From NCBI GenBank assembly GCA_029212965.1, contig JARGOV010000008.1, positions 17,951-81,950 on the forward strand: a stretch of 64,000 bases of DNA, given 5' to 3'. Below are positions 58,487 to 64,000 of this stretch, piece by piece. Under the pieces are notes generated by a model. That model saw only the letters and a list, made by a program, of their open reading frames with translations. It had not been told where the DNA came from and made no database searches. Positions within the stretch are counted from its first letter, which is position 1; every line of letters starts with the position of its first letter. The translations under genes and the position numbers were made by a program. The stretch is from Porticoccaceae bacterium (GTDB lineage Bacteria; Pseudomonadota; Gammaproteobacteria; Pseudomonadales; Porticoccaceae).

Positions 58487-59884
58487 ATGCCATTATCCGT
58501 TCAGGTGGCTGTCTTAGCTAATCAGAGTCCACAAAAAAATACGGATCGGTCCTCATCGAGTGCTACAGCCTCTGTAGAGGGGAGCAGGGAGTCAGCTTTT
58601 TCAAACCACTTTGAGGCTGAGAGACATGTTAATTCAGGCAGCGTTGGTGGGGTCCAGGAAAAAGCAGCCGATAAGCCGAATGAAGTTGTTGACGCAGAAG
58701 TTGATGGCGATGCCAAAGAGACTCCCATCGACCTTCAGGAAGTTGTTATGGGTGGCAATGAATTGCCGCCAGCAGGCGCTATTTTTCCGGTTGGCCTAGA
58801 GAGTGTCGAGGCAGAACTGTTACATACTCAAAGTGAAACTCCGTCATCGTTAGCCCAGCAAATGGCCGTAGAGGTTGATACGGCCTCTGTTACTGCTGCA
58901 TTGCATCAGTGGGGCTTGTCTAATGGCGTTGAGCAAGGGGGTTTAAATTCAGCTTTACATGCTTCAAAGAAAACGGCGTATACACTTGCCATGCATGGCC
59001 CTACTACTGACATTAAGGCTGAATTGGCGCGTGTTTTGTCGGGCAAGGAGGCTCCTATTTCAGGTGAATTTGTCGATACAGCAGTGGACGTTGAGATAGA
59101 TGATAGTCTTAACATAGAATTCCTGGCAGGAAAAATCACCCGACCATTATTAGAGGGTGTGGTGTCTAACACGACAATCAAAATACCAACGGCGCAAGCG
59201 ATCGTTGAAGCATTATCGAATGGCTCAGGGCCTAAAGAAAATTTTGAACACGTGCGACAAAATATTCTGGCCGCCATGGTTGGAAAGTCGGAGTTGGGTA
59301 GCTCGGCCGTAGCACTCACTTCTGGGGCTGACGGAGGAGACTCTGCGCCACAAAGCTTGAATTTTTCAAATGTGAGTTCGACATTGTCCGTGCCAAGTGC
59401 AGAATCAGCTAAATACAGCGCCACTACTGAGACACCCCCGCCCCGTTTTTTTACCCTCCAAACCCCGGTAGGTCAGACGGGCTGGGATGCTGAAATCGGC
59501 AATCGCATTCGTTGGATGGTAGGGCAAAATAATTCAGGACTGGAATTGCGCCTCAACCCGGCTGAACTGGGTAGTGTTGACGTTAGGCTTAACACTGAGG
59601 GGGAGCGTACAAGTGTAACCTTTTTTGCAGCTAATCCGGCTGCTCGAGAAGCTCTGGAGGCGGCTCTTCCACGATTGCGCGAAATGTTTGCCGATAGCGG
59701 TATGCAACTCGCCAATGCCGATGTTTCCGATCAAAGCCTACAGCAGGAGCGAGAGCAACTAGCGGATTCTGACGCGAGGTCACCTGACGGCAAGATCGGT
59801 AAATCAATGAATTTAGACATTGAGTTAGAGCTGATACCGGGCAGGTCGGCAGAGAATAAAAACGTTATTGATTACTATATTTAG
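58487..59884 (+). CDS. fliK: Flagellar hook-length control protein FliK
   Basis: Secreted molecular ruler that switches export from hook to filament subunits, 465 aa. A low-complexity N-terminal two-thirds (Ser, Ala, Glu-rich, poorly conserved) precedes the conserved Flg_hook domain: GNRIRWMVGQNNSGLELRLNPAELGSVDVRLNTEGERTSVTFF-type region near 340-385 and ALPRLREMFADSGMQLANADV near 395. In most relatives fliK begins the fliKLMNOPQR operon; here minus-strand genes follow it. Confidence 0.92.
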   Translation: MPLSVQVAVLANQSPQKNTDRSSSSATASVEGSRESAFSNHFEAERHVNSGSVGGVQEKAADKPNEVVDAEVDGDAKETPIDLQEVVMGGNELPPAGAIFPVGLESVEAELLHTQSETPSSLAQQMAVEVDTASVTAALHQWGLSNGVEQGGLNSALHASKKTAYTLAMHGPTTDIKAELARVLSGKEAPISGEFVDTAVDVEIDDSLNIEFLAGKITRPLLEGVVSNTTIKIPTAQAIVEALSNGSGPKENFEHVRQNILAAMVGKSELGSSAVALTSGADGGDSAPQSLNFSNVSSTLSVPSAESAKYSATTETPPPRFFTLQTPVGQTGWDAEIGNRIRWMVGQNNSGLELRLNPAELGSVDVRLNTEGERTSVTFFAANPAAREALEAALPRLREMFADSGMQLANADVSDQSLQQEREQLADSDARSPDGKIGKSMNLDIELELIPGRSAENKNVIDYYI

Positions 59885-59919: not shown

Positions 59920-60090
59920 TTAAATGTACTCATCAATATGTACTGGGGCGTCATCATCAGGTTTTTTTTTCTTATCAGGTTTAGGTTTTTTTACGGGAAT
60001 GGGGATGTTTTTTTGTTTATCGCTAACAGACTTGCTCGCAGGTATACGCAGAGTTCGTGTGGTGCCAGGGGACGTTATTTCGTTAGCCAT
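59920..60090 (-). CDS. Small basic protein of unknown function downstream of motD
   Basis: 56-aa ORF below the ORF-track cutoff, found by hand. Support: a perfect AGGAGG at 5 bases before the ATG, 44 bases after motD on the same strand, and a natural stop before fliK. Starts MANEITSPGTTRTLRIPASK, then a lysine/proline-rich middle (PVKKPKPDKKKKPDDDAP) and ends HIDEYI. It is not membrane-like and is predicted disordered and basic with an acidic tail. The middle encodes a run of nine A, so an indel should be ruled out. I do not recognise a family. Likely the last gene of flhF-flhG-fliA-motC-motD. Confidence 0.72.
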   Translation of the reverse strand: MANEITSPGTTRTLRIPASKSVSDKQKNIPIPVKKPKPDKKKKPDDDAPVHIDEYI

Positions 60091-60134
60091 GAAGGCCTCC
60101 TGCCAGTGATTCAGCGTTACAAATAATTGGCGCG

Positions 60135-60941
60135 TTAACGATTTCTTAAGCGTGGGTCAAAGCCAACGGCGATGATAACAATAACAACCCTGCGGTTAGT
60201 AGCCCTCCCTGCGGGCGTGTCGTTGGGGACCTTGGGCTGGAATTCGCCGTAGCCAATCGATGCTAGGTTTTTTGGTGTCACACCATAGCTAGAAAAAAGC
60301 CTCACGACAGTGGCAGCGCGTGCCGCTGAGAGCTCCCAATTGGAAGGGTAAATACTATTTTTAATGGGCAAGTTGTCCGTGAAACCCTCGACGTGAATTT
60401 TATTATTACGGTTTTTTAGGACGTTACTCAACCCGCGTAATAAGGGTCTGGCGCTGGGCGATAAGTTACTACTGCCGCTGGGAAATAAAACCTTGCTGCT
60501 GATTTCGATTTCTAGCCAATTGTCTGATTTGCGTACTGAAACAAGTTCAGTTTCAAGAAGAGCTTTTAGTGCATTATTGATTTTTTGCCCAAGTTCATCC
60601 ATTTCTGGTGAGTTTTTCTTTTGCTGGGAGGGCTCAACTTTAATAGCATCTTTGCTCATGTTCTGAGGTAGGTCGAGTTTGATTGGTGTGCGCGATAAAG
60701 GTGTTGGCGCAATCGGGAAAGAGGTACTTGCCGTGCCAAATTGCACTGGGTCCATTGATCGGCTTTGGCTGGTAAATGAGGCAACAAGTGAGTGCGAGAG
60801 GACACGAAATTTGCCTTCATTAACGGAAGAAATGGAATACATGACGACAAAAAAAGCGAATAAAAGAGTGATAAAGTCAGCGTAGGAAACTAGCCATCGC
60901 TCGTGGTTTTCATGTTCTTCAGATACGCGCTTTCTAGCCAT
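60135..60941 (-). CDS. motD: Flagellar stator protein MotD (MotB-like)
   Basis: Proton-driven stator subunit anchored to peptidoglycan. 268 aa from the ATG at 60941 (MARKRVSEEHENHERW); the track's longer start is within motC. One membrane helix VSYADFITLLFAFFVVMYS carries the proton-binding Asp22; the C-terminal OmpA-like domain has SNWELSAARAATVVRLF and GYGEFQPKVPNDTPAGRATNRRVVIVI. Follows motC by 10 bases. Confidence 0.94.
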   Translation of the reverse strand: MARKRVSEEHENHERWLVSYADFITLLFAFFVVMYSISSVNEGKFRVLSHSLVASFTSQSRSMDPVQFGTASTSFPIAPTPLSRTPIKLDLPQNMSKDAIKVEPSQQKKNSPEMDELGQKINNALKALLETELVSVRKSDNWLEIEISSKVLFPSGSSNLSPSARPLLRGLSNVLKNRNNKIHVEGFTDNLPIKNSIYPSNWELSAARAATVVRLFSSYGVTPKNLASIGYGEFQPKVPNDTPAGRATNRRVVIVIIAVGFDPRLRNR

Positions 60942-60951
60942 AACTAATGAG

Positions 60952-61689
60952 TTAAAAATAGCCGCGTAATTTTGCTTCGATATTGCGGTGATTTTCGCCT
61001 TCTGCAATAGCAACAACACCTTCCACAATCATTTCCTGGATATGGCAGCGGTCGCTGATTAGAGTTTTTAATTTATTAGCCGCGGGTAGTAAAAAAAGAT
61101 TGGCCATACCAACACCGTAAATGGTGGCGACAAAGGCGACGGCGATACCGGGACCTAGGGTGGAGGGATCAGCCAGATTGTTCATCACATGAATAAGGCC
61201 CAGTACCGCGCCGATAATACCGATAGTGGGGCTGTACCCGCCCATGCCTTCGTACACTTTCGCTCCTTTAATGTCGAAAGCTTCTTTGGTTGTAATTTCT
61301 ACTTCCATCGTACTACGGATGGATTCAGGTTCGTTGCCATCAATGAGTAATTGCAGACACTTTTGGGTAAAGGGTTCGTTTTCTTCTTCAGAAATATTTT
61401 CCAGGCCTAGGAGGCCTTCCTTGCGTGCAATCTGACTCCATTCCACAATTTTTTGTAACGCTGTAGCTGGGTCAAGTTGGGGGGGGATAAAAATCCAGCG
61501 CAGTAATTTAATACTGTGAATAAATACTTTAATAGGAGTCTGTACCATGATCGCACCGAGGGTGCCGCCAAAAACAATTAAAAAGGCGGTGAACTGTAGT
61601 AACGAGTCCAAATGCCCGCCTTCCAGGGCATTACCGCCAATGATGGCAGCAAAAGCAAAAATGACGCCGAGCAGAGTGAGAATATCCAT
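60952..61689 (-). CDS. motC: Flagellar stator protein MotC (MotA-like)
   Basis: Partner of MotD, 245 aa. Four membrane segments (LLGVIFAFAAIIGGNALEGG, LLQFTAFLIVFGGTLGAIMV, GGYSPTIGIIGAVLGLIHVM, GIAVAFVATIYGVGMANLFLLP) and a cytoplasmic loop for FliG contact are visible. The MotA-type proline in YSPTIGIIG is present. Lies between fliA and motD, without the cheYZAB genes seen there in pseudomonads. Confidence 0.94.
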   Translation of the reverse strand: MDILTLLGVIFAFAAIIGGNALEGGHLDSLLQFTAFLIVFGGTLGAIMVQTPIKVFIHSIKLLRWIFIPPQLDPATALQKIVEWSQIARKEGLLGLENISEEENEPFTQKCLQLLIDGNEPESIRSTMEVEITTKEAFDIKGAKVYEGMGGYSPTIGIIGAVLGLIHVMNNLADPSTLGPGIAVAFVATIYGVGMANLFLLPAANKLKTLISDRCHIQEMIVEGVVAIAEGENHRNIEAKLRGYF

Positions 61690-61705
61690 TTAAATCGTGT
61701 CCGGC

Positions 61706-62428
61706 TTAGCGGCTGGTGTTGCTGGTGTCAGATGTCCAGGACAGCAGGCTAGAGCGCAGCTTGTTAAGTATCTGACTGTGGATTTGGCTGACCCTCGACT
61801 CGCTAATTTCAAGCACGCTACCAATTTCTTTAAGGTTTAATTCATCGTCGTAATAGAGTGACATTAACATTTTTTCACGCTCCGGCAATTCTGCTATATG
61901 TGCACTTAAAGCCGTACGAAAAGCGGAATCGTGGAGATTGTCATGAGGCGTGTTGGTGTCGGGCAGATCGACTTCGTTAACATCGACAAAAGTGGCTTTG
62001 CAGGTGGCGGTGTCGCGCAATAGCTGGTGATATTCGTCCATATCGACACCCAGTTGGGCAGCAATTTCACTATCCTTAGGGCTGCGCTGAAGTTCGACTT
62101 CAACCGCCCGGGTTGCCTGAGCTAGCCAGCGCGCTTTTTGTTGAATACTGCGCGGTGACCAGTCAAAGCGACGTACCTCGTCGAGAATGGCACCGCGAAT
62201 ACGGATGCCCGCAAAGGTTTCAAATGTCGCGCCTTGGCCGCTGCGGTAGCTTTTTGCTGCTTCAAGTAGACCAATTAAACCAACCTGGGTTAGGTCGTCA
62301 ATATCGATGGTAGCAGGTAGCCTGGATGCGATATGAAAGGTGATTTTCTTGACTAAGTGAAGGTAATCGGTGACCAGTTGCTCACTGTTTCCGAACTCTT
62401 CATCAGCGTAGAAAACCGCTTTTGTCAT
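61706..62428 (-). CDS. fliA: Flagellar sigma factor FliA (sigma28)
   Basis: RNA polymerase sigma factor for late flagellar genes, 240 aa. Region 2: LVKKITFHIASRLPATIDIDDLTQVGLIGLLEAAKSY; region 3: EVELQRSPKDSEIAAQLGVDMDEYHQLL; region 4: LPEREKMLMSLYYDDELNLKEIGSVLEISESRVSQIHSQ. Overlaps flhG by 4 bases. Predicted targets in the window are fliC, fliD and flgMNZ. Confidence 0.97.
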   Translation of the reverse strand: MTKAVFYADEEFGNSEQLVTDYLHLVKKITFHIASRLPATIDIDDLTQVGLIGLLEAAKSYRSGQGATFETFAGIRIRGAILDEVRRFDWSPRSIQQKARWLAQATRAVEVELQRSPKDSEIAAQLGVDMDEYHQLLRDTATCKATFVDVNEVDLPDTNTPHDNLHDSAFRTALSAHIAELPEREKMLMSLYYDDELNLKEIGSVLEISESRVSQIHSQILNKLRSSLLSWTSDTSNTSR

Positions 62429-63285
62429 GCAGCGTATTCCTCGTTCGGATAACCGACAACGCGCTCGATAAAGAATTCCATATTGCCGCTTGCGAGCTCA
62501 GGTACGGGCCATTTGTCGATGGCTTTGGTGAGCCGAGTGATGGCCTGTGCTGAGGGACTACGCGGGAAGGCTTCAACGACAGGCATTTGATGACGTACCG
62601 CTTTACGCAGGTAGTCATCCATGGGAATGGAGCCAATATGCACGGCAACGATATCTAGAAAATGATCGGTGACGCGGGATATTTTGCGGAACAGCTCTTC
62701 GCCATGAGCATTACTATTGACCATATTAGCGAGGATGTGGAAACGTTTTACCCCGTGATCGCGGCTCATCACTTTAATGAGGGCGTAGGCATCAGTAATT
62801 GAGGTCGGCTCATCACAAACCACGACCACAACCTCCTGACTCGCTTTGCAGAAGGTAATCACGCTATCGGAAATACCGGCAGCAGTGTCGACAATCATTG
62901 TGTCGACAGGAAATGCTAGCTCACTGAAGGCGCGTACCAAGCCGGCATTTTCAGCCGGTGAGAGGTCGGCCATACTCGATACACCTGAGGAAGCGGGGAT
63001 CACTTTTAACCCCATAGGCGCGTCAACGATAACTTCATCCAAGGTGCGCTCACCGGCAATTACGTGTCGCAGGTCGTATTTTGGGTGGAGGTCGAAGAGA
63101 ATGTCGACATTGGCAAGCCCGAGGTCAGCATCCATTAATAATACATTATCACCTTGTTTCGCAAAGGAGGCGGCAAGGTTCACTGAAATATTGGTTTTAC
63201 CGACACCACCTTTACCGCTGGTGATGGCAATGACGCGAACTGGCTTTTGTTGTGGCGCTCTCGCGACTGATGAATTATTAGCCAT
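62425..63285 (-). CDS. flhG: Flagellar number regulator FlhG (FleN), ParA/MinD-like ATPase
   Basis: Limits polar flagellar number and antagonises FleQ in relatives. 286 aa from the ATG at 63285 (MANNSSVARAPQQKPVRVIAITSGKGG); the track's longer start is within flhF. The deviant Walker A GKGGVGKTN near 27, LLMDADLGLANVD and VIVVDTAAGIS-type MIVDTAAGISDSV are intact. It overlaps flhF by 8 bases and fliA by 4. The N-terminus lacks the DQAxxLR helix of some FlhGs, as in pseudomonad FleN. Confidence 0.95.
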   Translation of the reverse strand: MANNSSVARAPQQKPVRVIAITSGKGGVGKTNISVNLAASFAKQGDNVLLMDADLGLANVDILFDLHPKYDLRHVIAGERTLDEVIVDAPMGLKVIPASSGVSSMADLSPAENAGLVRAFSELAFPVDTMIVDTAAGISDSVITFCKASQEVVVVVCDEPTSITDAYALIKVMSRDHGVKRFHILANMVNSNAHGEELFRKISRVTDHFLDIVAVHIGSIPMDDYLRKAVRHQMPVVEAFPRSPSAQAITRLTKAIDKWPVPELASGNMEFFIERVVGYPNEEYAA

Positions 63286-64000
63286 GGAGTCGTTTCTCCT
63301 CATGAGTACGGGTTGAATGCTTACTAGGGCTTGTGGTCTCAGGGTCTATTATAGGCTGGTGAGAGCCAGTACGTTGTAATAAGTCGCGGGCGATTTTGAC
63401 CAGTTCAATTGCCGAACCTAGGTGGAGGTCCTCGGGCACTTTTTGACCGTTGCTGATAAAAAAGGTGGGCAACTGATAAGTTATTAAGGCGTTGAGCACG
63501 CCGCCGAGACTTGCGGCCTCGTCGACTTTAGTGATTACGGTGCCCGCAAGAGTGATATCACTAAAGACGCGCATAATTTCACTGGTGATTGCTTGCTGTG
63601 CGGTGGCAGACAACGTCAGGTAGAACTGAATATCGTGTCCGGCTCCCGTTAAGGTAGCTAGTTGTTTGGAGAGTTCCATGTCGCGTTGACTCATGCCAGC
63701 GGTATCAATCAAAATGAGATCTTTATCGCTGAGCTGGTCTAGTATATCCGACAGTTCAAGCCGGTCAGTGGCTAGAAAAACGGGGATGTCGAACAGTTTT
63801 CCGAAGGTGCTGAGCTGGTCGACGCCGCCGATGCGAAAACAGTCTGTGGTAATCAGGCCTATTTTATCGGTGCCGTGGCGCAGAGCGTATTGTGCAGCTA
63901 GTTTGGCGACAGTTGTGGTTTTACCAACACCCGTTGAGCCAATAATTGCATAGGTGCCGCCAGTTTCGAGAAGCTGATGGTCGCCCTCGACGAGCATGGC
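63278..64000 (-). CDS. flhF: Flagellar SRP-like GTPase FlhF, 5' partial
   Basis: Places the flagellum at the cell pole. Only the C-terminal GTPase part (about 241 codons) is in the window; the N-terminal B domain lies past the right edge, so the track's ATG at 63997 is internal. G1 IIGSTGVGKTTTVAKLAAQYA, TTDCFRIGGVDQL, DTAGMSQRDMEL and GTVITKVDEAASLGGVLN are seen. First gene in the visible flhF-flhG-fliA-motC-motD unit. Confidence 0.95.
   Translation of the reverse strand, partial: AMLVEGDHQLLETGGTYAIIGSTGVGKTTTVAKLAAQYALRHGTDKIGLITTDCFRIGGVDQLSTFGKLFDIPVFLATDRLELSDILDQLSDKDLILIDTAGMSQRDMELSKQLATLTGAGHDIQFYLTLSATAQQAITSEIMRVFSDITLAGTVITKVDEAASLGGVLNALITYQLPTFFISNGQKVPEDLHLGSAIELVKIARDLLQRTGSHQPIIDPETTSPSKHSTRTHEEKRLHG

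Follow-up and report, generated by a model that had tools for sequence, protein, structure and literature searches.

The stretch of DNA analysed here (the window) comprises 64,000 nucleotides of a contig from a Porticoccaceae bacterium and contains, at 59920..60090 on the minus strand, a 56-aa open reading frame (ORF), MANEITSPGTTRTLRIPASKSVSDKQKNIPIPVKKPKPDKKKKPDDDAPVHIDEYI, whose coordinates include the stop codon. A sequence-only reading had pointed to this frame as an overlooked gene with an ideal ribosome-binding site at correct spacing, and the site is indeed present as a Shine-Dalgarno AGGAGG at 60096..60101 on the same strand, with the 5-nt spacer CCTTC between it and the ATG. The encoded protein comprises a conserved N-terminal segment (residues 1–27; 60010..60090), a variable linker rich in Lys, Pro and Asp that changes in length in frame across species (59941..60009), and a C-terminal HIDEYI of FliK type that does not vary within the genus (59923..59940), all on the minus strand; translation agrees with the basic middle and HIDEYI tail originally described. 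The gene motD (MotB_plug + OmpA) lies 44 nt upstream at 60135..60941, and its location on the same, minus strand had been correctly noted. Farther upstream on this strand, within 60952..64000, are motC, assigned to the MotA family by Pfam, and fliA, fleN/flhG and a partial flhF, which are named from sequence only. On the other side lies fliK (Flg_hook; 58487..59884, plus strand), the product of which ends in VIDYYI, encoded at 59864..59881 on the plus strand. The 35-nt distance between the fliK stop codon and the ORF had been given accurately, but it had gone unstated that the two genes occupy opposite strands and converge. A terminator scan found no intrinsic terminator in this convergent gap.

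With the 56 residues alone as query, a direct sequence search of 58 relatives gave full-length matches in all seven genomes of the window's genus and only weak, partial matches elsewhere. In each of these seven genomes, the ORF is intact between motD and the convergent fliK. The genus ORFs range from 55 to 61 aa at 55–70% identity, with length differences that are multiples of 3; HIDEYI ends all seven, and AGGAGG stands at the right distance from the start in six. In a genus codon alignment with mostly saturated synonymous sites, for which pN/pS is given rather than a precise dN/dS, the ratio is 0.26 for the whole ORF; it is 0.17 over residues 1–27, rises to 0.45 in the linker and falls to 0.04 across the last eight columns. 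The ORF is, with near certainty, a real gene under purifying selection, and both outcomes named beforehand as fatal to that claim, no conserved ORF in close relatives and a dN/dS near 1, are contradicted by its retention in 7/7 genomes and by the pN/pS of 0.26. A chance ORF in the low-complexity motD-fliK spacer, a notion encouraged by its short length, its low complexity and the lack of a Pfam or NCBIfam match, has negligible probability against the conservation of start, stop, slot and tail, the Shine-Dalgarno sequence in six of seven species, the pN/pS value, the in-frame indels and the class-wide homologues, and is excluded for practical purposes.

Two artefactual origins were also considered. 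Read-through from motD or a split gene was ruled out because the distance from motD to the ATG in the seven genus genomes (44, 68, 55, 55, 49, 69 and 51 nt) keeps no common frame, which marks the ORF as an independent gene. An assembly frameshift at the A9 run, which the sequence-only reading had flagged for checking, was ruled out because the frame after the run closes with the invariant HIDEYI and a stop codon. The AF2 model of the protein, computed with the genus alignment, has a mean pLDDT of 67 and a pTM of 0.15 and contains no helix or strand element. These values are consistent with disorder, and the product is probably a disordered peptide or adaptor, as had been suggested.

Finding homologues beyond the genus took the tail pattern together with the slot. 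The DNA pattern H[IV]DEY[AVIT]-stop, run over 392 genomes of the order, gave six matches, one of which reads TGG instead of a stop codon. The five true matches are the window's ORF and four similar small charged proteins, two from the same taxonomic family (G026 and G016) and two from another (G037 and G106). In G026, the small gene is followed by a 168-aa ORF with only a sub-threshold DUF6173 match (L092:2206-2712, reverse complement). The regions downstream of motD were inspected in 20 genomes; related or similar-looking ORFs were found after parA in G063 and between cheW and a DUF2802 gene in G040 and G042, with a more divergent one, ending NVDERC, in G029. Since the ORFs of G040 and G042 stand beside a DUF2802 gene, the slot upstream of DUF2802 was surveyed. 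The gene next to this slot, identified by its Pfam domain, encodes FipA (DUF2802, PF10975), an interaction partner that binds FlhF (PMC11620751).

DUF2802 turned up in 122 of the 274 genomes searched across the class, and 110 of the fipA loci across Gammaproteobacteria were inspected. A strict tail regular expression identified 46 ORFs on the coding strand of these loci and none on the reverse strand; a profile built from 45 of them (one odd sequence was dropped, and none came from the window's genus) added 22 ORFs, all on the coding strand and again none on the reverse. A small ORF of 51–80 aa, rich in Lys, Arg, Glu and Pro, occupies the slot upstream of fipA in 67/110 loci. Typical members read like MADIPDITPTKPLWPTRPDERG...DGHIDEYV, with an N-terminus that is short and conserved, a linker that varies and the C-terminus H[IV]D[ED][YF][AV]; their usual place is immediately before fipA, where an flhF-flhG-fliA-(che)-motCD-parA-parP-cheW region ends. 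The tail frequencies among the 67 members (H at −6 in 46, I or V at −5 in 60, D at −4 in 66, E or D at −3 in 64, Y or F at −2 in 64, and A or V at −1 in 65) are biased upward because the 45 seeds were picked on the tail; the slot and the N-terminus common to the family are independent of that choice. A Shine-Dalgarno sequence precedes 27/67 family ORFs versus a background of 11%, a signal that is weak across the wider family because start codons are uncertain. Neither the window ORF nor any of four typical members has a match at E<=1 in Pfam or NCBIfam. The literature searched, which misses most subscription journals, yielded one paper studying DUF2802/FipA and none that names or describes the small gene. 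The slot ORFs form a widespread family, apparently undescribed so far, whose members are small, disordered flagellar proteins.

Judged by profile, slot and tail, the window ORF is very probably a divergent member of this family. The 45-seed profile scores the seven genus members at 18.2–33.4 bits, and full shuffles reach at most 13.8 bits. Shuffles that keep the tail reach the real score in 0% of cases for five genus members, in 2% for one and in 8% for the window's sequence, which on its own scores 18.2 bits. Because 8% of tail-kept shuffles attain this value, the membership of the window ORF draws partly on its sister species and on the slot; the genus as a whole is well supported, the window's sequence taken singly somewhat less so. 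The HIDEYI of the seven genomes agrees with the family tail H[IV]D[ED][YF][AVI], and the protein has the size and composition of the family (50–80 aa, rich in Lys/Arg, Asp/Glu and Pro, with few hydrophobics): its 56 residues include 21% KR, 14% DE, 14% P and 21% hydrophobics, versus family means of 20, 21, 14 and 17%. The likeness to the ORFs of the cheW-fipA slot extends over size, composition, N-terminal segment, tail and location at the end of the region. The genus differs from them in having no P.WP.RP core in the N-terminus, in ending with I rather than A or V, and in placing the ORF directly after motD because cheW and fipA are absent there, the cheW-fipA slot being typical of the family without defining it. 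Intermediate positions occur after parA in G063, after motD in G026 and after fliA in G016.

The small family and FliK share one pattern in their last five residues. Across the 2.76 Mb genome that holds the window, fliK and the 56-aa ORF are the only genes to end in I-D-x-Y-[AIVTM]-stop, a third match reading TGG instead of a stop codon. Every readable FliK tail in this survey, from E. coli to distant Gammaproteobacteria, fits [ILV]D.[YF][AVI]-COOH, with VIDYYI in the genus, LVDYYA and VVDFFV in addition, ILDEYA in G478 and GVDIFA in E. coli. Open frames of >=150 aa number 944 over all loci examined, some of them repeats from overlapping loci, and this pattern ends 42, comprising 41 FliK sequences and one small-family member lying in a longer frame. 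In both proteins the motif occurs strictly at the C-terminus, and nothing else in them is similar; the likeness was noticed after the fact and covers five residues only. At position −3 the small family has an acidic residue (E/D), where FliK mostly has an aromatic or aliphatic one or Thr, and comparison of the last residue by eye reveals no clear co-variation (in G016, FliK ends LVDTYI and the small protein HIDEYA). FliK also carries the FliK-type tail in G056, G522, G504 and E. coli, where the small gene was not found. The stretch that precedes the FliK motif is disordered and varies while the motif is kept (loci L207-L236, and L206 from E. coli). Origin of the two like tails as an inverted repeat is not favoured, because the tail codons vary synonymously with the residues fixed and because the tail is also present where fliK is not adjacent (G026, G016 and G037).

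The last five residues of FliK have been proposed to engage the C-terminal domain of FlhB (FlhB-CCD) and thereby to flip export specificity from hook to filament, a 2026 model assigning the export switch to these residues (PMC13344023). The C-terminal tail of FliK is disordered and influences switching (PMC6972891). In many Gammaproteobacteria, a second FliK-like gene (Flg_hook) stands beside a short FlhB C-domain-like gene (L095:5057-6450 in G029; L237-L256), and its product ends in a distinct set of tails, VVDERA, LVDETA, LIDEQA and CVDEQI. In G029 and G066, the small ORF of the locus has a tail (NVDERC and NIDEQC, respectively) similar to that of this second FliK-like protein.

Comparison of gene content narrows the set of potential partners. 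FipA/DUF2802 was not detected in any of 16 genomes of the window's family (G000-G006, G013, G016, G026, G029, G030, G033, G036, G063 and G066), all seven genus genomes included; a control set was likewise without FipA, though 122 other genomes gave a match in that search. The window and G016, at least, carry flhF and fleN without FipA and are possible FipA-free FlhF systems. G000 and G016 contain only three CheW domains each, which lie with a ~2000-aa protein in one cluster (G000:C6:78369-89678; G016:C10:24452-34854), apparently that of the pilus Pil-Chp system. Flagellar chemotaxis seems to have been lost in these two genomes, and the flagellar genes remain. No close MotCD homologue was found in G016, where the small gene lies directly after fliA. 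Because the gene persists in genomes without them, FipA, flagellar CheW and MotCD are not required, and G016 together with the genus genomes rejects the stator, chemotaxis or FipA as an obligate partner. FlhB, FliK, FlhF and FlhG stay candidate partners, with FlhB and FliK always present to act on (G000 has one of each).

The reading favoured here is that of a cytosolic, disordered small protein whose C-terminal pentapeptide would dock on the site used by the FliK tail and whose conserved N-terminus would bind a second partner. The first choice of function is that of a competitor or placeholder that would delay a premature export switch, a role comparable to that of Fluke (Flk). That it tunes the export switch through the docking site of FliK is a tentative proposal, judged to fall somewhat short of an even chance. 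The FliK tail may be an FlhB-type docking peptide that the small protein uses in the cytosol to influence the switch, and FlhB-type recognition fits because the second FliK-like proteins paired with an FlhB C-domain-like protein end VVDERA, LIDEQA and CVDEQI. A possible, though doubtful, extension is that the family as a whole carries the FliK switch peptide, competes with or replaces the FliK tail at FlhB, and would serve polar flagellates of the FlhF/FlhG type as a dedicated switch regulator that couples filament export to the flhF-flhG operon. A likeness five residues long may have arisen by convergence, with no partner in common, and the operon position equally suggests FlhF/FlhG as the partner.

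The main rival, itself rather unlikely, builds on that position. It holds that the protein is a polar-placement adaptor that connects FlhF or FlhG, together with FipA in genomes that have it, with one another or with the basal body and helps to set flagellum position or number, the likeness to the FliK tail being convergent. The gene closes the flhF-flhG-fliA region and usually has as its neighbour fipA, the product of which binds FlhF (PMC11620751); it directly follows flhF-fleN-fliA in G016, and loci read far enough also contain FlhF/FlhG genes. Retention of the gene in 7/7 genus genomes without detectable FipA speaks against such an adaptor, as does the fact that no FlhF/FlhG-binding motif was recognised, and the match of the tail to FliK alone among about 900 C-termini would be left unaccounted for. 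It is improbable that the shared C-terminus instead governs stability or proteolysis, or docks on another component of the export apparatus (FlhA, FliJ) rather than on FlhB-CCD. Such a function would suit a motif that is strictly C-terminal in two otherwise dissimilar proteins, but the published model puts the terminal residues of FliK on FlhB-CCD (PMC13344023), and the tails found beside the FlhB C-domain-like protein (VVDERA, LIDEQA and CVDEQI) fit FlhB-type recognition. Of the earlier suggestion of a role with stators or pole proteins, the pole-protein part (FlhF/FlhG) survives in the polar-placement rival and the stator part is not supported, relatives carrying the gene between cheW and fipA or after parA. 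An adaptor of stators or chemotaxis acting with MotC/MotD, ParP or CheW is very unlikely, for although motD adjoins the gene here and cheW adjoins it in other families, G016 keeps it after fliA with no close MotCD homologue, and in G016 and G000 alike the only three CheW domains are apparently those of Pil-Chp.

Debate over how FliK throws the export switch goes back decades, and the flagellar operon in question is heavily studied. A separate small protein that bears the terminal peptide of FliK and is missing from Pfam and NCBIfam would offer a natural handle on the switch step, for it can be removed, or expressed, by itself. It could also account for the way in which polar flagellates, without Flk, hold switching in check. 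Should the FlhB idea prove wrong, there is still a conserved, uncharacterised gene beside that of the FlhF recruiter in about 60% of sampled fipA loci. The family adds to the flagellar accessory proteins one that bears a known terminal motif and is itself apparently undescribed.

Among known systems, FliK (Flg_hook, PF02120), which controls hook length, resembles the small protein in its tail, [ILV]D.[YF][AVI]-COOH after a disordered stretch, and in its flagellar locus. The 56-aa ORF differs from FliK in having neither the Flg_hook core (no Pfam match) nor a ruler domain, in its length of 56 aa versus about 350–600, in the acidic residue at −3 and in being a distinct gene, here on the opposite strand. 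FipA (DUF2802, PF10975) is encoded by the neighbouring gene in most carriers of the small gene, whereas the 56-aa ORF has no DUF2802 match, and neither the window's genome nor its genus gave a FipA hit. Fluke (Flk) inhibits premature export switching in Salmonella and is reported to act through FlhA (PMC13344023); its likeness to the small protein lies in the proposed role, not in sequence.
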